Below are positions 22,942-31,201 of a stretch of DNA of 64,000 bases, piece by piece. Positions within the stretch are counted from its first letter, which is position 1, and every line of letters starts with the position of its first letter. Below the pieces are notes generated by a model, which worked only from the letters and a program-made list of their open reading frames with translations, did not search any database and was not told the DNA's origin. Source of the DNA: Candidatus Izemoplasma sp. (GTDB lineage: Bacteria > Bacillota_I > Bacilli_A > Izemoplasmatales > Izemoplasmataceae); NCBI GenBank assembly GCA_018402725.1, contig JAGYII010000001.1, forward strand, positions 62,001 through 126,000, given 5' to 3'. The translations under genes and the position numbers were made by a program.

Positions 22942-23020
22942 GCCATAAACATCCTTTTTTTGTGCCAAATGATTGAAGTTAATAAGAGTCAGTGCTATAC
23001 TGCAAACGAAAGAAGGGATA

Positions 23021-23818
23021 ATGATGAAAAAAATCCTCTTAAGTTTAATCTTAATCGCCATTCTTACCTTAAGTGCTTGTCAACAGGGAACCGCCCAAGA
23101 ACAACCGGCCTTTGTCGGACAAGTGAATACTCAAACCATCATTCAAATTGATATTAACCCTTCCATCACCTTTGTCTTAGATGAAGAAGACTATGTGGTG
23201 GCGATCATAATCAATAACGAAGACGCAGAAATCATTACCGCCGATTTAGTTCTCCTCGGATTGAAATGGGAAGATGCATTAGAAGCGTATCTCACTGCCG
23301 CTCAAGAAACAGGATATTTAAACATTACTCGCAATGATAATCAAGTCACGATTTCTTTATCTTCAGAAGGAAAAGCGGATTTAGAAGTTTTCAAACAAGC
23401 CGTTCAAAACCGGGTCAGTGCATTCTTAGACCGTGAAGACATCGAAGGCCAAGTAAGAGCCAGCGAAAAATACTTTGAAGATTTAGAAGCGATTGCTGCC
23501 GCAAATAATGTGACCGTTCCGCAATGGATATTAATTCAAGCGGCCCTGCGTGCGGATGAAACCTTAACCCTAGAAGGGGCATTAGAATTAAGTACCGATG
23601 AACTTCAAACCATCTTACAAGCGACCTATCAAGACCGAATGATTCAAGCTCGTGTTTTAAAAGAAGAACTAAGAGTTATCATCCAAGCTGAAGTCGAAGC
23701 GACGATGGCCGCCATTGAATCAGGCGAACTCATTCCTCCCCAATCTTATGAAGAATTAAGAGCCTTGATTCGGGAGCGATTCAAAAGCTACCGGGATGCT
23801 CAAAACGAGGGTGAGTAG
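23021..23818 (+). CDS. Lipoprotein with RsgI-like (DINPS) domain
   Basis: The protein of about 266 residues has a signal peptide with lipobox LSAC (C20). It then has a domain QIDINPSITFVLDEEDYVV...GLKWEDALEAYL that resembles the extracytoplasmic domain of RsgI-type anti-sigma factors. In that family autoproteolysis occurs within the DxNPS motif (here residues 44-48). The rest is helical and acidic. There is no cytoplasmic anti-sigma segment or transmembrane helix, and no sigma-I gene nearby. It could be a surface sensor or a decoy domain; the function is unknown. ATG 23021 or 23024 follow AAGGGA. Confidence 0.72.
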   Translation: MMKKILLSLILIAILTLSACQQGTAQEQPAFVGQVNTQTIIQIDINPSITFVLDEEDYVVAIIINNEDAEIITADLVLLGLKWEDALEAYLTAAQETGYLNITRNDNQVTISLSSEGKADLEVFKQAVQNRVSAFLDREDIEGQVRASEKYFEDLEAIAAANNVTVPQWILIQAALRADETLTLEGALELSTDELQTILQATYQDRMIQARVLKEELRVIIQAEVEATMAAIESGELIPPQSYEELRALIRERFKSYRDAQNEGE

Positions 23819-23892: not shown

Positions 23893-23943
23893 TTATGCAT
23901 TCTGCACAAAAAGATAGATTTTAACACAATATGTAAGCGTTTT

Positions 23944-23973
23944 TTGTAATTTAAATAGTTTCTAATATATAAT
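23944..23973 (+). promoter_or_regulatory. Promoter of the sodium-pump rhodopsin gene
   Basis: TTGTAA at 23944-23949 and consensus TATAAT at 23968-23973 with an 18-base spacer. The leader is about 25 bases and has a full AGGAGG ribosome site at 23995-24000, four bases before ATG. Confidence 0.78.
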
Positions 23974-24004
23974 GTAAGCATAAAAATCTTTTTTAGGAGG
24001 AAAC

Positions 24005-24811
24005 ATGATAGGTTTACAAGAATTACAAGTATGGCAATTTGAATTAGTTCAACATGTTCTTACATTCGGTTTTGCCGCAATGGGAGCAGCATTACTTTAT
24101 TTCGTTCTTACCATCAAAGATAATGCACCAAGATATCGCCCTTCAAGTGTTTTAAGTGGGGTCGTAATGGTTTCAGCATTCTTGCTGTTATTCTTACAAT
24201 CACAAAGCTGGGCAGATGCATTTGTATTAGAAGGCGGTCAGTATGTCGCCAGTGGAACTTCAACGTTCTCTAACGGGTTCCGTTACTTAAACTGGTTAAT
24301 CGACGTACCTCACCTCTTAATCCAAATTCTATTTGTTGCCGGAATCGCAGGCGCCGCTTTCAGAAAATACCTTGTTCGTTTTACTGCCAGTGGATCACTC
24401 ATGATTATTACCGGTTATGTCGGTCAATTCTATGAACCAGGTCGTGGCGCTGAAACGAATATCACTATGTGGATCGTATGGGGCGTTATTTCAACCTTAT
24501 TCTACATTTGGGTTTTATTATTAATCACTCAAGTTATTAAAGAAGGCCGTGCGAACATGAAAGGTTCTAAAGCAGAGCCACTCTTCGCAGCAATCTTACC
24601 TTTATTCTATGTGGCATGGACCATTTATCCAATCGCATATGTTATGCCTTTATTCGGCGGAACCGCAGCTGCAGTTCTTCCATTAGCCATCGTGGCTCAA
24701 CAAGTTCTTTATACCATTGCTGACGTAACTTCAAAAATCTTCTATGGTGTTATGCTTAACGTATCTTCAACTCGTTTATCTGTTGAACAAGGCTACGAAC
24801 CAGCCGCTTAA
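24005..24811 (+). CDS. Light-driven sodium-pumping rhodopsin (NDQ type, KR2-like)
   Basis: The 268-residue, seven-helix protein is a type-1 microbial rhodopsin. Helix C reads FRYLNWLIDVPHLLIQILF, giving R93, N96, D100 and Q107. N-D-Q at these spacings is the diagnostic motif of sodium-pump rhodopsins (KR2 N112, D116, Q123). Helix G has D240 and the retinal Schiff-base lysine K244 in ADVTSKIFYGV. H17, S57 and E144 also match KR2 positions. KR2 R243 of the release-side cluster is replaced by Q232. L104 at the spectral-tuning site suggests green absorption (inference). It has its own promoter and terminator. No retinal-synthesis gene is in the window, so retinal would come from elsewhere in the genome or from outside. 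Confidence 0.95.
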   Translation: MIGLQELQVWQFELVQHVLTFGFAAMGAALLYFVLTIKDNAPRYRPSSVLSGVVMVSAFLLLFLQSQSWADAFVLEGGQYVASGTSTFSNGFRYLNWLIDVPHLLIQILFVAGIAGAAFRKYLVRFTASGSLMIITGYVGQFYEPGRGAETNITMWIVWGVISTLFYIWVLLLITQVIKEGRANMKGSKAEPLFAAILPLFYVAWTIYPIAYVMPLFGGTAAAVLPLAIVAQQVLYTIADVTSKIFYGVMLNVSSTRLSVEQGYEPAA

Positions 24812-24902: not shown

Positions 24903-26453
24903 ATGAGTTTATTAACCCTCAAAGATGTGACTTTTAACTATGTTGGAACGCCCCTTTTAGAATCCGTAAATGGGCGTCTTTTAGCCAAAGAACATGTAGT
25001 ATTGCTAGGTCCCAACGGGACGGGGAAATCGACTCTCATGCGCTTACTGATGAAACAAATTAAACCCGATGCCGGCCAGCTGACCTGGGAACCTCATATT
25101 ACCGTGAGAGGGCTTGATCAACAATTGGAGTTGCCCCTTGAAAAAACGGTGCTCGAATTTTTATCCGGTGTTTTTCATGCATCGTTTATACAAGAACAGC
25201 AGATGCAAAAATATTATCAAGAATCCATGACACTCTCAGGCGAGGCACAGCTTAAAAAGATTGCCCAAGCCACCCGGATTCAAGAGGCGTTGAGTGATTC
25301 TGGTTTTTATCAATACCAAACTGAAATATCAAAGATTTTAACTGGAGTTGGCTTATCCACTGATATTTTGAATGATCGGATTCAGACTTTATCGGGCGGG
25401 ATGCGCTCAAAAGTGAAACTGGCTGAACTCTTACTGGCTGAATCGGATGTTTTGTTGTTAGATGAACCCACAAACTTTTTAGATGAAACCCAAGTAAACT
25501 GGTTAGTTCGATATTTAAAGGGATGGCCCAAAGCCTTTATTTTAGTCACCCATGAACCCGATGTTGCTAAAGAAGTGGCTGAAGTCATCTGGGTGATCGA
25601 ACAAAAATCACTGTCTATTTACAGAGGCAATTATGCGTATTATTTAACTGAAAAAGAACTCCGGGCCACCCAACACCATAAAGCGGTGACCGCTCAACGA
25701 AAGTGGATTAAACAAACCGAAACCTTTATTGCAAAAAATATAGTTAGGGCATCCACTACAAAACTTGCTCAAAGTCGACGCAAAGTCCTCGAGAAAACCA
25801 CTCGCCTAAACCCGCTTGAGAAAAAGAAAGAGTACCGTTTTGAATGGCCCCTTAGTCGTCCCACAGGTCAAAAAGTATTAGAAGTAGAGCATCTAGAAGT
25901 GGGGTATGAGGGCCCCTTGGTTGAAGCCATCGATTGGACGGTACTTAAAGGGGAAAAATGGGTCATTACTGGAAAAAATGGCGTGGGGAAATCCACCTTG
26001 ATGAAAACCATCAATGAGATCATTCCATCGCTAGAAGGCCGTTTTAGATGGATTGATACCGCTGATGTTAATTATTTTTCTCAAGAACGAGCCTTTGAAA
26101 AAGAAGAAACGCCATTTTCCGTGATTCATGAGGCATTTCCGTTATGGGACCAAGAACAGATCTATAGTTTACTGGGCTTATTTGGCCTCAAAGCGGATAA
26201 AGCGAAACGCTCAATGCGGACTTTATCTGGAGGAGAACAAACGAAAGTTAGAATGGCTTTGATTGCAAAGATTAAAAGTAATGTTTTAATTTTTGATGAG
26301 CCGACTAATCATTTAGATATCGAAATAAAAGCCGCACTTCAAAAGGCTTTAATTGAGTATCAAGGCACCGTGATATTAGTGTCCCACGAAAAACCTTTTT
26401 ACGAACCCATCTGTGATCGCCAATTGATTTTAGAAAGGGCCAGCCATGAGTGA
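24903..26453 (+). CDS. ABC-F family ATPase (ribosome-associated type)
   Basis: The 516-residue protein has two ABC domains and no membrane segments. Domain 1 has GPNGTGKST, LSGGMRSKV and LLLDEPTNFLD. Domain 2 has GKNGVGKST, LSGGEQTKV and IFDEPTNHLD. A charged linker lies between them. This is the ABC-F layout, whose members act on translating ribosomes or protect them from antibiotics. The specific subfamily is not resolved. ATG 24903 is the correct start; an upstream frame runs back into the rhodopsin gene. It overlaps the acetyltransferase gene by 8 bases, which could hint at a resistance pair. Confidence 0.9.
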   Translation: MSLLTLKDVTFNYVGTPLLESVNGRLLAKEHVVLLGPNGTGKSTLMRLLMKQIKPDAGQLTWEPHITVRGLDQQLELPLEKTVLEFLSGVFHASFIQEQQMQKYYQESMTLSGEAQLKKIAQATRIQEALSDSGFYQYQTEISKILTGVGLSTDILNDRIQTLSGGMRSKVKLAELLLAESDVLLLDEPTNFLDETQVNWLVRYLKGWPKAFILVTHEPDVAKEVAEVIWVIEQKSLSIYRGNYAYYLTEKELRATQHHKAVTAQRKWIKQTETFIAKNIVRASTTKLAQSRRKVLEKTTRLNPLEKKKEYRFEWPLSRPTGQKVLEVEHLEVGYEGPLVEAIDWTVLKGEKWVITGKNGVGKSTLMKTINEIIPSLEGRFRWIDTADVNYFSQERAFEKEETPFSVIHEAFPLWDQEQIYSLLGLFGLKADKAKRSMRTLSGGEQTKVRMALIAKIKSNVLIFDEPTNHLDIEIKAALQKALIEYQGTVILVSHEKPFYEPICDRQLILERASHE

Positions 26454-27258
26454 GAAAAAAGTTATAGATTCATCCATCAGTCCGGTTTCATCTGAAGATA
26501 TCATTAGAGACTTACAGCAACTAGGCCTCAATAAAGGGGACGCAGTGATGTTGCATGTCTCACTTAAATCGATGGGATGGGTGATTGGAGCTGAAGTGGC
26601 TTTATTAAATGCCATTACCACCTTGATTGGGCCAAAAGGGACGTTAGTAATGCCCACTCAAACAGGCCATTTAGGCGACCCTTCTGAATGGGAAAATCCC
26701 CCAGTACCCGCGGCATGGGTATCTAAAATTAAAGCCTCTATGCCCGCTTTTGATCCTTTAAGAACTCCCACCTATCACATGGGCCAAGTCGCTGAACTTT
26801 TTAGAACCTGGCCTGGCGTCATCCGGTCTAATCACCCGCACGCTTCATTTTGTGCATGGGGCTTTGATGCAAAATCATTGATGGAAGAGCATGCTCTTGA
26901 TTCAGCCTTTGGAGTCAAGAGTCCTCTTCATAAGATGCTAAAGCTGCCATTTAAAATCGTCTTAATTGGCGTCGATTATGATGTTTGTACGGCGCTTCAT
27001 TATGCCGAAGCCATTCAAGATACACCCAAAAAAGAAAAAAAGATGATGATCATCCTTCAAAATAAAACGCGCAAAATCATCGAAGTCATGGACCTTGCGT
27101 ATTCCACCCGGATGTTCAAAAAAATTGGCCAACGGTTCGAAAAAGAGGTGGGTATTAAAAAAGGATTAGTCGGACATGCGACCACCCGTGTGATTGAAAT
27201 GCCGACTTTGATTGATTATGCTTCTAAGCTCTTAAAAAACGATGCAACTTTCAAGTGA
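26446..27258 (+). CDS. AAC(3)-family N-acetyltransferase
   Basis: The 270-residue protein matches the aminoglycoside N3-acetyltransferase family (HVSLKSMGWVIG, LIGPKGTLVMPTQTG, PTYHMGQVAELFRTWPGVIRSNHP). Homologues such as YokD occur widely in Bacillota and are not always resistance enzymes. It acetylates an amine using acetyl-CoA in the cytoplasm. The native substrate is unknown. It is translationally coupled to the ABC-F gene. Confidence 0.88.
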   Translation: MSEKKVIDSSISPVSSEDIIRDLQQLGLNKGDAVMLHVSLKSMGWVIGAEVALLNAITTLIGPKGTLVMPTQTGHLGDPSEWENPPVPAAWVSKIKASMPAFDPLRTPTYHMGQVAELFRTWPGVIRSNHPHASFCAWGFDAKSLMEEHALDSAFGVKSPLHKMLKLPFKIVLIGVDYDVCTALHYAEAIQDTPKKEKKMMIILQNKTRKIIEVMDLAYSTRMFKKIGQRFEKEVGIKKGLVGHATTRVIEMPTLIDYASKLLKNDATFK

Positions 27259-27339: not shown

Positions 27340-28281
27340 ATGTCCGAAGGCTCAGTGGCGATTCCAAGTGTAGCGATTCAAGGTCGTAAACTATGGATTC
27401 TCAATGCTTCATTACTCATTATCCTCGCGGCCTCAGCTCTTATTTTTGGCCCTTATGTTTTACTCATTGCTTCAGTCAGTATTGCCGTTAGCGCGGCATT
27501 TGATTTTTTATTCATCTATTATAAAAAGGCATCATGGGATGGGGCTTGGCTCTTATATCCCTTGATTTTTTCTTTAATGTTGCCTCCAAGTGCTCCCTTG
27601 TGGATTGCTGGGGTCGGCGCTGCCTTTGGAAACTTATTTGCCAAACGCCTTTTTGGCGGTTATGGAAAAACGATATTTCATCCCGGCGTTGTCGGAATTT
27701 TATTCTTAACGATTTCATTCCCAATCATCATCTTTGGTTGGTTTGATCCAACCGTTCATGGTTGGTATAACCCCTTTGTTGAAGGGGCCACGAGTATCTT
27801 AGCTCCCCTAACCCCCCTTCATCAGCTCAACAGCACAGGGGACACCTCTGCAACCGTCATGAATTTATTATTCGGACAAACCGCGGGTAATATAGGAGAG
27901 ACCTTTGGGGTATTAATCGCTTTATTAGGACTTGGACTTATCGCCTTAAAAGTGATTGATTGGAAACTCCCTGTCAGCATCTTGGCTAGTTTTGTGGTGT
28001 TATCGATCATCTTTGAATTACTCGGTGTTTCTGGAGACAGTTTAAAATCCTTGCTGAGTGGATCGTTACTTTTTGGCGCGTTCTTTGTCGCCTCTGACCC
28101 TGTCCACGCCCCAAGAAATACCAAAGCCATTTGGATCTTTGGTTTTGGGGTTGCACTCCTTACTTTTGTGATTCGTAACTTTGCGACGTTTGCGGAAGGA
28201 TTTATCTTTGCCTTAATTATTATGTCAGCCGTGGGTTCTTTAGTGGATGCCTGGTTAACTAATAAGGAGGTTAAAGCATGA
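27340..28281 (+). CDS. nqrB: Na+-translocating NADH:quinone reductase subunit B-like (NqrB/RnfD family)
   Basis: The 313-residue membrane protein has about nine to ten hydrophobic segments and the NqrB/RnfD signature FGGYGKTIFHPGVVG. A later segment GQTAGNIGETFG also matches. The covalent-FMN threonine, normally in SGATPL, may correspond to T158 in APLTPLHQL. It is shorter than typical NqrB (about 410) and nearer RnfD in length. It is expected to be a membrane core subunit carrying sodium. It is the first gene of the operon and overlaps the next by ATGA. No nqrA precedes it. Confidence 0.85.
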   Translation: MSEGSVAIPSVAIQGRKLWILNASLLIILAASALIFGPYVLLIASVSIAVSAAFDFLFIYYKKASWDGAWLLYPLIFSLMLPPSAPLWIAGVGAAFGNLFAKRLFGGYGKTIFHPGVVGILFLTISFPIIIFGWFDPTVHGWYNPFVEGATSILAPLTPLHQLNSTGDTSATVMNLLFGQTAGNIGETFGVLIALLGLGLIALKVIDWKLPVSILASFVVLSIIFELLGVSGDSLKSLLSGSLLFGAFFVASDPVHAPRNTKAIWIFGFGVALLTFVIRNFATFAEGFIFALIIMSAVGSLVDAWLTNKEVKA

Positions 28282-28871
28282 AACGCATTTTATCAATCAT
28301 GGGTTTTGTTTTTGCGATGGGCTCCATCACCAGTTTACTGATCATTGGGATGGACGCTTTGACTTTCGAACGCATCTTAGCCAACGAGCAAGCCTTGTTT
28401 CAATCCAAAGTATTAGACGCCTTTGACGTCCCTTATACCACCGCGACCATCAATGAAGTCTTCATTCAAAATGTTGAAGCGATTGAACTCGATGTCAACG
28501 GTGAAACCGTTACGGTGTATCGAGATCCTAAAACAGGTCGTATCAGCATGGAAATCAGTGGGGGCGGCGTTTGGGGCCCGATTATTGGGGTCTTAACCCT
28601 TGAACCGGATTTTGTCACCATCGCAAATGTTGCCATCTTACAACAAGAAGAAACGCCTGGTCTAGGGGGCCGTATCACTGAACCTGCCTACTTAGCTAAG
28701 TACATTGGGGTCGTCTTTAATCCTGATGTGGTGGTGACCAAAAATATCCCCTCCGCCGATAATGAAGTCGACGCCATCACCGGCGCAACAGGAACCTCGA
28801 CTCGCTTTCAAATTATTTTAAATGATACCCACGCCAAACTATTTCCGCTTTTACAAGCGTTAGAGAACTAG
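28278..28871 (+). CDS. nqrC: Na+-NQR subunit C-like FMN-binding protein (NqrC/RnfG family)
   Basis: The 197-residue protein has one N-terminal membrane helix and an extracytoplasmic FMN-binding domain. The flavinylation motif is TGATGTS at 168-174, with T173 the expected covalent FMN site. TPGLGGRI, around residues 126-133, is the family's flavin-proximal motif. It would relay electrons between membrane cofactors. An ApbE-type flavin transferase is needed and is not in this window. Confidence 0.9.
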   Translation: MKRILSIMGFVFAMGSITSLLIIGMDALTFERILANEQALFQSKVLDAFDVPYTTATINEVFIQNVEAIELDVNGETVTVYRDPKTGRISMEISGGGVWGPIIGVLTLEPDFVTIANVAILQQEETPGLGGRITEPAYLAKYIGVVFNPDVVVTKNIPSADNEVDAITGATGTSTRFQIILNDTHAKLFPLLQALEN

Positions 28872-28880
28872 GAGACTGAT

Positions 28881-29516
28881 ATGAATCGATTTTGGAAAAG
28901 ACTCCAATACACGAAATGGTTTAACATTTCAAAAGACGGCATCTTCAAAGAGAACCCGATTGTCGTGGCAGTATTAGGGATTTGTTCAGCCCTTGCCGTT
29001 ACCAACCGAGTTGAAAATGCGATTGCCATGGGATTAGCGGTAATGTTTGTCGTCACCGCAAGCTCACTTGTTGTGTCGGCAATCCGTAACTTTATCCCTA
29101 GCCGGGTGAGAATGATTACATACATGGTCATCATCTCATCGTTCGTGATTTTGGTTCAAATGTTCTTAGAAGCCTTTTTCCCTGTGATCGCTGCCTCATT
29201 AGGAGCTTACTTAGGTCTTATCGTTACGAACTGTATCGTCATGGGCCGTGCTGAAGCGTTTGCGGTTAAAAACCCTTTAAAATATACATTTTTTGATGGG
29301 GTTGCAAATAGCTTAGGATACATGTGGATATTAATTGCGGTTGCATTCTTTAGAGAAATACTCGCCTTTGGAACCCTTCTTAACTTCCGGGTCATGCCAG
29401 ATACTTGGGTGAACTGGACCGTGATGGCATTAGCTCCTGGGGGTTTCTTCGTCCTCGCCCTAATCATTTGGGGTGTTCGTGAATGGGCAAAATACTTTGA
29501 TGTGGCAGCAGAATAG
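28881..29516 (+). CDS. nqrD: Na+-NQR subunit D-like (NqrD/RnfE family)
   Basis: The 211-residue membrane protein has six hydrophobic segments. Motifs are NPIVVAVLGICSALAVTNRVENA and, later, LGLIVTNCIVMGRAEAFA, typical of NqrD/RnfE. The conserved membrane cysteines near CSALAVT and TNCIVMG help hold an iron centre between subunits D and E. Start ATG 28881 follows AGGAG. It lies between nqrC and nqrE in the standard order. Confidence 0.93.
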   Translation: MNRFWKRLQYTKWFNISKDGIFKENPIVVAVLGICSALAVTNRVENAIAMGLAVMFVVTASSLVVSAIRNFIPSRVRMITYMVIISSFVILVQMFLEAFFPVIAASLGAYLGLIVTNCIVMGRAEAFAVKNPLKYTFFDGVANSLGYMWILIAVAFFREILAFGTLLNFRVMPDTWVNWTVMALAPGGFFVLALIIWGVREWAKYFDVAAE

Positions 29517-29521
29517 GAGAT

Positions 29522-30106
29522 ATGATGGCCAATTTAGCAGATATTTTTATCACTTCGATATTATCCGGAAACATTGCTCTCACCCTGATCTTAGGGATGT
29601 GCCCACTTATTGCGATTTCAACCAATGTTAAAAACGCCCAAGGAATGGGCTTAGCGGTCATTTTTGTGGTGACCATAACGGGGATTATTAATTATCCGAT
29701 TTATTTATTGCTTCAAGCGACGGGCACTGAACGTTTGTCCATCTTAGTCTTTATTATTACCATTGCAGCGACCGTTCAGTTCTTAGAATTATTCATTGAA
29801 AAAGTATCCCCCAGAATGTACAACAACTTTGGGTTATTCTTACCCCTAATCACGGTGAACTGTGTGGTTTTAGCGGTCTCTTTATTCTTTGTCAACCGGG
29901 GTTACAACTTCGGTCAAACGGCTGCATTTAGTTTTGGTGCATCGATTGGATGGGCCTTAGCCATCATCTTATTAGCCGCCATTCGTGAAAAAATGAAAAA
30001 TCATTCAAGCGTCCCAAGAGGCCTTGCGGGCAGAGGAATTGTCTTTGTTGTTTTAGGCATTTTATCGCTTGCATTTATCGGCTTTACCGGACTCTCATTC
30101 TTCTAG
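29522..30106 (+). CDS. nqrE: Na+-NQR subunit E-like (NqrE/RnfA family)
   Basis: The 194-residue membrane protein has six hydrophobic segments. It shows GMCPLIAISTNVKNAQGMGLAV and FLPLITVNCVVLAVSLF, the two cysteine-bearing half-repeats typical of NqrE/RnfA, inverted relative to subunit D. It is expected to form the sodium-gating pair with subunit D. GGAGA precedes ATG 29522; ATG 29525 is an equal alternative. Confidence 0.93.
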   Translation: MMANLADIFITSILSGNIALTLILGMCPLIAISTNVKNAQGMGLAVIFVVTITGIINYPIYLLLQATGTERLSILVFIITIAATVQFLELFIEKVSPRMYNNFGLFLPLITVNCVVLAVSLFFVNRGYNFGQTAAFSFGASIGWALAIILLAAIREKMKNHSSVPRGLAGRGIVFVVLGILSLAFIGFTGLSFF

Positions 30107-30115
30107 GAGGTAACG

Positions 30116-31201
30116 ATGGATCCCATTTTTGTAGTTACTATTTTACTTGGCATCTTGGTTTTAAGTTCGATCATCTTATTGGGCGCTGAACGCCTCTTTG
30201 GAGGCGGCGGTGAGAAGATGTTGACGGTGAATAATACCCTTCACATCCCCATCACTGAATCAGATACGGCGTTAAATATCTTATCCAAAAACGAAATTTA
30301 TATTCCCTCCGCTTGTGGTGGTAAAGCGACGTGTGGTCTTTGTAAAGTCAAAATCACCGATGGGGCATTTGAACTAAAACCTACCGAAACACCTTTTATT
30401 GGACCGAAAGACGCCGCAGAAGGGATTCGGCTCTCCTGTCAAACTAGGGTCGCTCAGGATATGAAAATTGAAATTCCTGAAAGCTTGTTTGGGGCGAAAG
30501 AATATAAAGTAGAACTGGCAGCTTTAGAATCATTGACCTATGATATTAAACTTGTCCGCTTTAAACTAATCGAACCCAAAGTCTTAGATTTTTACCCGGG
30601 TCAATATGCCCAGTTCATTATTCCAGGGGTTGAAGCGGTTAGAGCGTACTCTTTTGCTGGAGATGCCAAAATCAAAGACCATGTTGAATTCTTAGTTAGA
30701 ATGGTCCAAAAAGGAGTCGCGACCACCTACGTCCATGACATTATGCAACCGGGCGATCAGATGACCATTACCGGTCCTTATGGAGACTTTTATTTAAGAG
30801 AAGAATCCGACCGTGACATTATTTGTATCGCAGGGGGTTCAGGGAAAGCCCCGATTCGTTCGATTTTATATCGTTTAAGAGATTTAGGGATGCCAAGAAA
30901 AGTCCGTTATTTCTTTGGTGCGGTCACCAAAAAAGATCTTTATTACACCGAAGAATTCGAGGAGCTCTCTAAAGAATTTCCTAACTTTGAATACATCCCG
31001 GCCTTATCTAAACCCGCTCCTGATGATAATTGGAAAGGCGAAACTGGCTTAATCACCGAAGTATTAGACCGAATGACCGATGATTTATCAGGGAGTGAAG
31101 CGTATTTATGCGGATCCCCCGGCATGATCTTTGCGTGTATCAAGGTCCTTGATAGTCATAAACTTCCAAGAGATCACACCTATTACGATAGTTTTGCTTA
31201 A
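30116..31201 (+). CDS. nqrF: Na+-NQR subunit F-like NADH-oxidising flavoprotein (NqrF)
   Basis: The 361-residue protein has an N-terminal membrane helix and then a 2Fe-2S ferredoxin domain with ligands C67, C73, C76 and C108. An FAD domain follows (RAYSFAG at 176-182) and then an NADH-binding domain (CIAGGSGKAPIRSI and the C-terminal DSFA). This is the electron entry subunit of Na+-NQR and has no counterpart in Rnf. Its presence marks the operon as Nqr-type. The operon ends with a terminator 5 bases after the stop. Confidence 0.93.
   Translation: MDPIFVVTILLGILVLSSIILLGAERLFGGGGEKMLTVNNTLHIPITESDTALNILSKNEIYIPSACGGKATCGLCKVKITDGAFELKPTETPFIGPKDAAEGIRLSCQTRVAQDMKIEIPESLFGAKEYKVELAALESLTYDIKLVRFKLIEPKVLDFYPGQYAQFIIPGVEAVRAYSFAGDAKIKDHVEFLVRMVQKGVATTYVHDIMQPGDQMTITGPYGDFYLREESDRDIICIAGGSGKAPIRSILYRLRDLGMPRKVRYFFGAVTKKDLYYTEEFEELSKEFPNFEYIPALSKPAPDDNWKGETGLITEVLDRMTDDLSGSEAYLCGSPGMIFACIKVLDSHKLPRDHTYYDSFA

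Follow-up and report, generated by a model that had tools for sequence, protein, structure and literature searches.

Most of what is known of light-driven sodium pumping comes from Bacteroidota that are aerobic and make carotenoids. The rhodopsin gene at positions 24005-24811 of the stretch of DNA analysed here (the window, 64 kb of a 132-kb contig) lies in a mollicute-like genome of 1.02 Mb, and raises the questions of whether its product pumps sodium and how such a pump would serve this host. The answer that we favor, with considerable confidence, is a light-driven outward Na+ pump of the KR2 kind, coupled to a Na+-ATP synthase, and probably controlled by CcpA and dependent on scavenged retinal. 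With such a pump, energy capture from light would reach into a lineage near the mycoplasmas, in which genomes of 1 Mb lack known retinal genes. The protein identity, clade, motif, rotor ligands, synteny, operator sequences, and absence of known retinal genes, on which this answer draws, were all read from sequence.

The gene is as follows.

24005-24811, plus strand: predicted NDQ-type sodium-pump rhodopsin (NaR) gene, a complete open reading frame of 268 amino acids with an ATG start

The product matched the Pfam family Bac_rhodopsin (E = 1.2e-37). R93, N96, D100, Q107, D240, and K244, which the sequence-only reading had placed at the KR2 spacing, were all found at these positions, giving the full six-residue RNDQDK motif. 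In a sequence search of the PDB, the top matches were IaNaR (8jh0, 3.6e-68) and KR2 (3x3b, 8.4e-61), and weaker matches were seen for chloride pumps (8e-46) and xanthorhodopsin (1.5e-32); the comparison with the NTQ pumps was by PDB E-value only. The AlphaFold2 model (pLDDT 92) exhibited a seven-helix KR2-like fold, and its top 50 fold matches in the PDB were all KR2, IaNaR, or ErNaR entries, with TM scores of 0.86-0.90 against these three proteins. L61 corresponds to L74 of KR2, and Leu or Ile at this position defines NaR Subgroup 1 (PMC11006869), to which the window rhodopsin is thus assigned. An ErNaR-type Subgroup 2 identity, which is marked by Glu at the same position, was ruled out by this Leu.

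In a tree of 35 rhodopsins, the window protein was placed inside the NaR clade, which was separated from the DTE pumps by a branch with 100/100 support. It belonged to an 18-sequence clade of mollicute-like Bacilli and two Spirochaeta MAGs (100/100), in which the Bacilli members formed a single branch (97/94), and its closest relatives were all mollicute-like Bacilli. Beside this clade stood the Bacteroidota and Rhodothermota NaRs, including KR2 and IaNaR, and the Anaerolineae NaRs fell outside the clade. All six core residues were invariant across the 18 members, and the equivalents of S70, S64, and L74 were kept. The tree and the fold therefore agree on the membership of the NDQ sodium-pump clade that had been proposed, and, by every feature testable in silico, the window gene is a member of the NDQ sodium-pump family. 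No report of rhodopsins in Izemoplasmatales, NB1-n, or Mollicutes was found in the open literature, and the main-text passages available of a soda-lake MAG paper, whose MAGs were scanned with PF01036, contain no mention of Mollicutes rhodopsins.

The extracellular side of the protein differs from that of KR2. In the window rhodopsin, E144 (E160 in KR2) is the only member of the E11-E160-R243 triad that is kept, Q232 occupies the position of R243, and a PGRGAE loop is inserted after E144. Essentially the same pattern was observed for the whole clade: Gln was found at the R243 position in 18 of 18 members, whereas Arg was found in all eight other NaRs of the alignment; all 18 had the E160 equivalent with a Pro directly after it, and in most of them a P-G-R or P-G-T loop was inserted; and the N-terminal Glu (E11) had no counterpart in the members whose N-terminus was present. 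Judged from the alignment, the Bacilli and Spirochaeta clade has lost two triad members and gained a P-G loop, a feature that is new here. KR2 triad mutants keep pumping Na+, with lower stability (PMC7195465), so the triad loss is compatible with pumping, and the 18-member clade would most likely still pump sodium, through an altered exit side. As a natural experiment, the clade shows which extracellular KR2 residues evolution can dispense with under a fixed NDQ core.

Compared with characterized NaRs, the window protein shares with KR2 the R-N-D-Q-D-K core, the equivalents of L74, S70, S64, Q78, and E160, and the fold (TM 0.87-0.89). Conversely, it is only about 42% identical to KR2, lacks an E11 counterpart, carries the PGRGAE loop after the E160 position, and has Gln for R243, Ser for D102, Asn for G263, Phe for Y108, and Ser for N61; in addition, its host is mollicute-like and without a known retinal pathway. 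IaNaR from Indibacter alkaliphilus (8jh0), the nearest solved structure by sequence (48%), shares the core and the Ser at KR2 N61, but has an N-terminal Glu (FENY), Arg at R243, and no inserted loop. ErNaR (Subgroup 2) is likewise an NDQ pump without D102, whereas its residue at KR2 L74 is Glu and its E5-E149-R234 triad is complete; the window NaR has Leu and a broken triad instead. The NaRs of Anaerolineae (Chloroflexota; L018-L022 and L024) have the NDQ core in common with the window NaR at 45-52% identity, and, unlike it, keep R243 and an N-terminal (F/M/I)EN motif. What is new relative to known NaRs is the broken triad, the host, the wiring, and the probable control.

As to the host, TGA was a stop codon in 8 of 25 checked genes, and the family also holds the Candidatus Izimaplasma MAG CSBr16_87 (G011), in line with the proposal of a standard-code relative of mollicutes. 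The genome is 85.5% complete in 42 contigs, so single absences from it carry little weight. Each of the genus's four sequenced species carries the NaR gene, which was present in 7 of 90 genomes of the order. The order MatE-Trx-TrxR-CsoR-RsgI-like-NaR-ABC-F-AAC-nqrB was kept, as far as the contigs reach, in three separately assembled congeners (L002, L003, and L004; the L002 contig stops within nqrB), and the GC content of the NaR gene equalled that of its neighbours. Because the gene order is kept in three congeners, the NaR gene is a resident of this genome and not a binning error. Among congeners, the NaR is 90-91% identical, compared with 38-58% for the immediate neighbours (58% for the adjacent ABC-F and about 40% for the RsgI-like gene), and NaR pairs gave dN values of 0.08-0.09 versus dS values of 1.5-2.6 (NG86; dS is near saturation). 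By these sequence comparisons, the NaR is under strong purifying selection in the genus.

Several features of the neighbourhood were also observed. The upstream neighbour of the NaR (22973-23818) combines a lipoprotein-like start with a middle domain resembling RsgI, and evolves fast (about 40% between congeners). An aminoglycoside 3-N-acetyltransferase-family gene (26446-27258) lies directly upstream of nqrB and is genus-conserved. In L003, a deoxynucleoside-kinase-like gene (L003:8923-9522), absent from the window, lies between the NaR and ABC-F genes; in L002 and L004, the gap between these two genes is equal in size to the region of this kinase-like gene.

Downstream of the NaR gene, the window contains the following sodium-related genes.

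27340-31201, plus strand: nqrBCDEF-like Na+-translocating oxidoreductase operon, about 2.5 kb downstream of the NaR gene
27340-28281, plus strand: nqrB-like open reading frame
28278-28871, plus strand: nqrC-like open reading frame
28881-29516, plus strand: nqrD-like open reading frame
29522-30106, plus strand: nqrE-like open reading frame
30116-31201, plus strand: nqrF-like open reading frame

The synteny of the nqr genes with the NaR was kept in L003 and L004. The operon is a transcription unit separate from the NaR gene, and we infer a functional partnership between the two. No nqrA was found within the operon in the window, which has short NqrB (313 amino acids) and NqrC (197 amino acids), and the same arrangement was seen in L003 and L004. 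The c subunit of the host F-ATP synthase, encoded elsewhere in the genome (L084, GPGIGQG...AETTGLY), was aligned to what we take to be the Ilyobacter c-subunit sequence, and has Q, E, T, and Y at the Na+-ligand positions of the latter. The Na+ ligands of the Ilyobacter c subunit are Gln32, Glu65, Ser/Thr66, and Tyr70 (PMC2359735), every one of which is represented in the host subunit, as expected of a Na+-type rotor; the same rotor was found in all four congeners. Since the c subunit carries the Na+ ligands and nqrBCDEF lies downstream of the NaR gene, a route from light through a sodium gradient to ATP, without protons, is plausible, and these same two features lend weight to the proposed light-powered energy supply. 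The system would also allow a clear-cut test of ATP synthesis fed by nothing but a sodium gradient made with light. In L006 (L006:8801-12231) and L007-L009, the NaR gene adjoins, in convergent orientation, genes for subunits A, B, and D of a V/A-type ATPase.

The genes that form retinal in other organisms were searched for in the same genomes. The search for Blh/Brp (PF15461) was negative in 41 relatives and in every Bacilli NaR genome, and positive in two non-Bacilli genomes. Carotenoid oxygenase (PF03055) was absent from the Bacilli NaR genomes and was found only in Spirochaeta and one Chloroflexota genome, and true lycopene cyclases, in a search covering types other than CrtYcd, were found only outside Bacilli. 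The positive genomes or loci in these searches were L046, L047, L079, L080, L097, and L098. The PF05834 matches in Bacilli were rejected as lycopene cyclases, being short FAD-domain fragments. Contig C6 of the window genome (G000) encodes phytoene synthase and two CrtI-type desaturases; a retinal pathway in the host was nonetheless rejected, as Blh, carotenoid oxygenase, and lycopene cyclase were not found. Because no known retinal-forming gene was found in the Bacilli NaR genomes, retinal is probably scavenged from others or formed by an unrecognised route, and the opsin may often be without retinal. A functional rhodopsin without known retinal genes has been described in Aurantimicrobium minutum (PMC7734400).

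The C6 cluster, which is of the carotenoid type (L039:6360-10243), comprises CrtI, a phytoene/squalene synthase, a putative phytol-kinase-like membrane protein, and a TIGR00297-like protein, and the second CrtI-type desaturase lies nearby (L038:11062-12594). Many rhodopsin-less relatives have phytoene synthase too, and it was not found in two congeners, one of them 96% complete. The Spirochaeta NaR genes (L013:2450-5912 and L017:5469-8977) are flanked on one side by a MerR regulator that carries a B12-binding-like domain and on the other by an RPE65-family carotenoid oxygenase, an arrangement that is possibly a light-regulated NaR-retinal cassette using carotenoid oxygenase instead of Blh.

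Because its extracellular release cluster and its cytoplasmic selectivity positions depart from those of KR2, the window rhodopsin could alternatively be a light-driven pump with changed selectivity, moving H+ for the most part, or cations other than Na+. In favor of this are the clade-wide loss of E11 and R243 and the substitutions at G263, N61, D102, and Y108 in the window rhodopsin. Under scarce Na+, KR2 itself turns to pumping H+ (PMC7195465), and its G263F mutant (6rfc) pumps potassium. We regard such a change as unlikely, given that the six core residues and the S70, S64, and L74 equivalents are kept throughout the clade, that S and T also occupy positions 61 and 263 in the established sodium pump IaNaR, and that Na+ pumping persists in the KR2 triad mutants (PMC7195465). 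The lack of known retinal-forming genes in every Bacilli NaR genome examined, and of phytoene synthase in the two congeners, would also be consistent with an opsin that is made but stays mostly without retinal, so that in nature it would do little, if anything, with light. The strong purifying selection, the invariant Schiff-base Lys and core, the retention of the gene in the whole genus, and the example of A. minutum, whose rhodopsin works without known retinal genes (PMC7734400), make this quite improbable.

The sequence-only reading had also named a chimeric contig as a possible error, and a mis-binned Bacteroidota gene would fit both the first NaR descriptions, which came from Bacteroidota, and the division of the window genome into 42 contigs. 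No chimerism was indicated, however: the same gene and gene order recur in three separate assemblies, the nearest relatives are all mollicute-like Bacilli, and the GC content of the gene is that of its neighbours. The tree placement and the congener synteny rule out a chimeric contig, and we give such an origin practically no credence.

In the outward sodium pump that we favor, the deduced parts are the transport, the ion selectivity, the regulation, and the retinal source. Light would isomerise the retinal bound at K244, D100 would take up the Schiff-base proton, and Na+ would be held transiently near N96, D100, and D240 and then expelled outwards, past a remodelled extracellular side where only the Glu of the E11-E160-R243 cluster is left, Gln stands at R243, and the P-G loop is added. 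The Na+-type F-ATP synthase would spend the sodium gradient, with a coupling ion common to the NQR complex, and the NaR would top up energy and remove sodium. CcpA would probably de-repress the NaR once sugars run out, and the chromophore would probably be taken from neighbours. A wider reading, toward which we lean slightly less than away from it, is that Bacilli and Spirochaeta NaRs form a distinct third NDQ group with a rebuilt sodium exit, used in Bacilli as an emergency sodium circuit that is powered by light, repressed by sugar through CcpA, and dependent on scavenged retinal; the partners of this circuit would be the Na+-ATP synthase, NQR, or V-ATPase.

The regulatory part of the sodium-pump reading draws on the following signals around the NaR gene.

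23932-23945, plus strand: cre-like CcpA operator, imperfect, TGTAAGCGTTTTTT, touching the -35 element
23944-23973, plus strand: putative promoter, TTGTAA-18-TATAAT (10/12), with the -35/-10 region aligned in four species
23995-24000, plus strand: ribosome-binding site AGGAGG, conserved as AAGGAGG in L002-L004
24819-24844, plus strand: intrinsic terminator, an 11-pair stem followed by a T-run

The AGGAGG site and the strong terminator of the sequence-only reading are both present, the latter in a region where three terminator-like sites were found versus 0.7 expected. The consensus-like promoter stands as a sequence but not as an above-chance one, with three promoter-like sites in the region versus 3.2 in shuffled sequence. 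For the cre-like site, 11 bases (TGTAAGCGTTT) are invariant in the four species of the genus and occur once in the window. The site agrees at seven of nine fixed positions (eight in congeners) and is degenerate at its right end, seven being common in random 150-mers; as it is imperfect and its score unremarkable, the case for this operator rests on genus conservation.

At the other Bacilli loci, a perfect cre (consensus TGNAANCGNWNNCA) was found at the NaR promoter in 9 of 10, with 14/14 matches to TGNAANCGNWNNCA at -55 to -70 in L006-L012, L015, and L071, compared with 0.006 expected per 150 bp in the same loci; these nine are not independent and represent about three lineages. In six of the nine, the cre overlaps the -35 hexamer TTGACA, and in B. 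subtilis, a cre box that overlaps a promoter acts in repression (PMC3463425). A CcpA-like LacI-family protein was detected in most Bacilli NaR genomes, including the host, at 280-296 bits (equivalog cut-off, 442 bits), and the next-best LacI paralogue in the window genome scored 162 bits. Judging from these operators, sugar-repressed NaR expression is likely in the Bacilli clade and possible in the window genome. The clade and the host of the sequence-only reading were borne out, as was a non-chimeric contig, whereas high constitutive expression was not supported, since Bacilli members have a CcpA-type operator at the NaR promoter. Control of a rhodopsin promoter by a cre operator, if true, would tie the use of light directly to carbon starvation at the level of regulation.

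For two of these loci, further observations were made. An RnfG-like neighbour of the NaR in L071 was dropped, having no Pfam match. The L012 contig, with a mollicute-type NaR, is filed as a Staphylococcus epidermidis MAG with a 0.9-Mb genome, and this species label is probably wrong.
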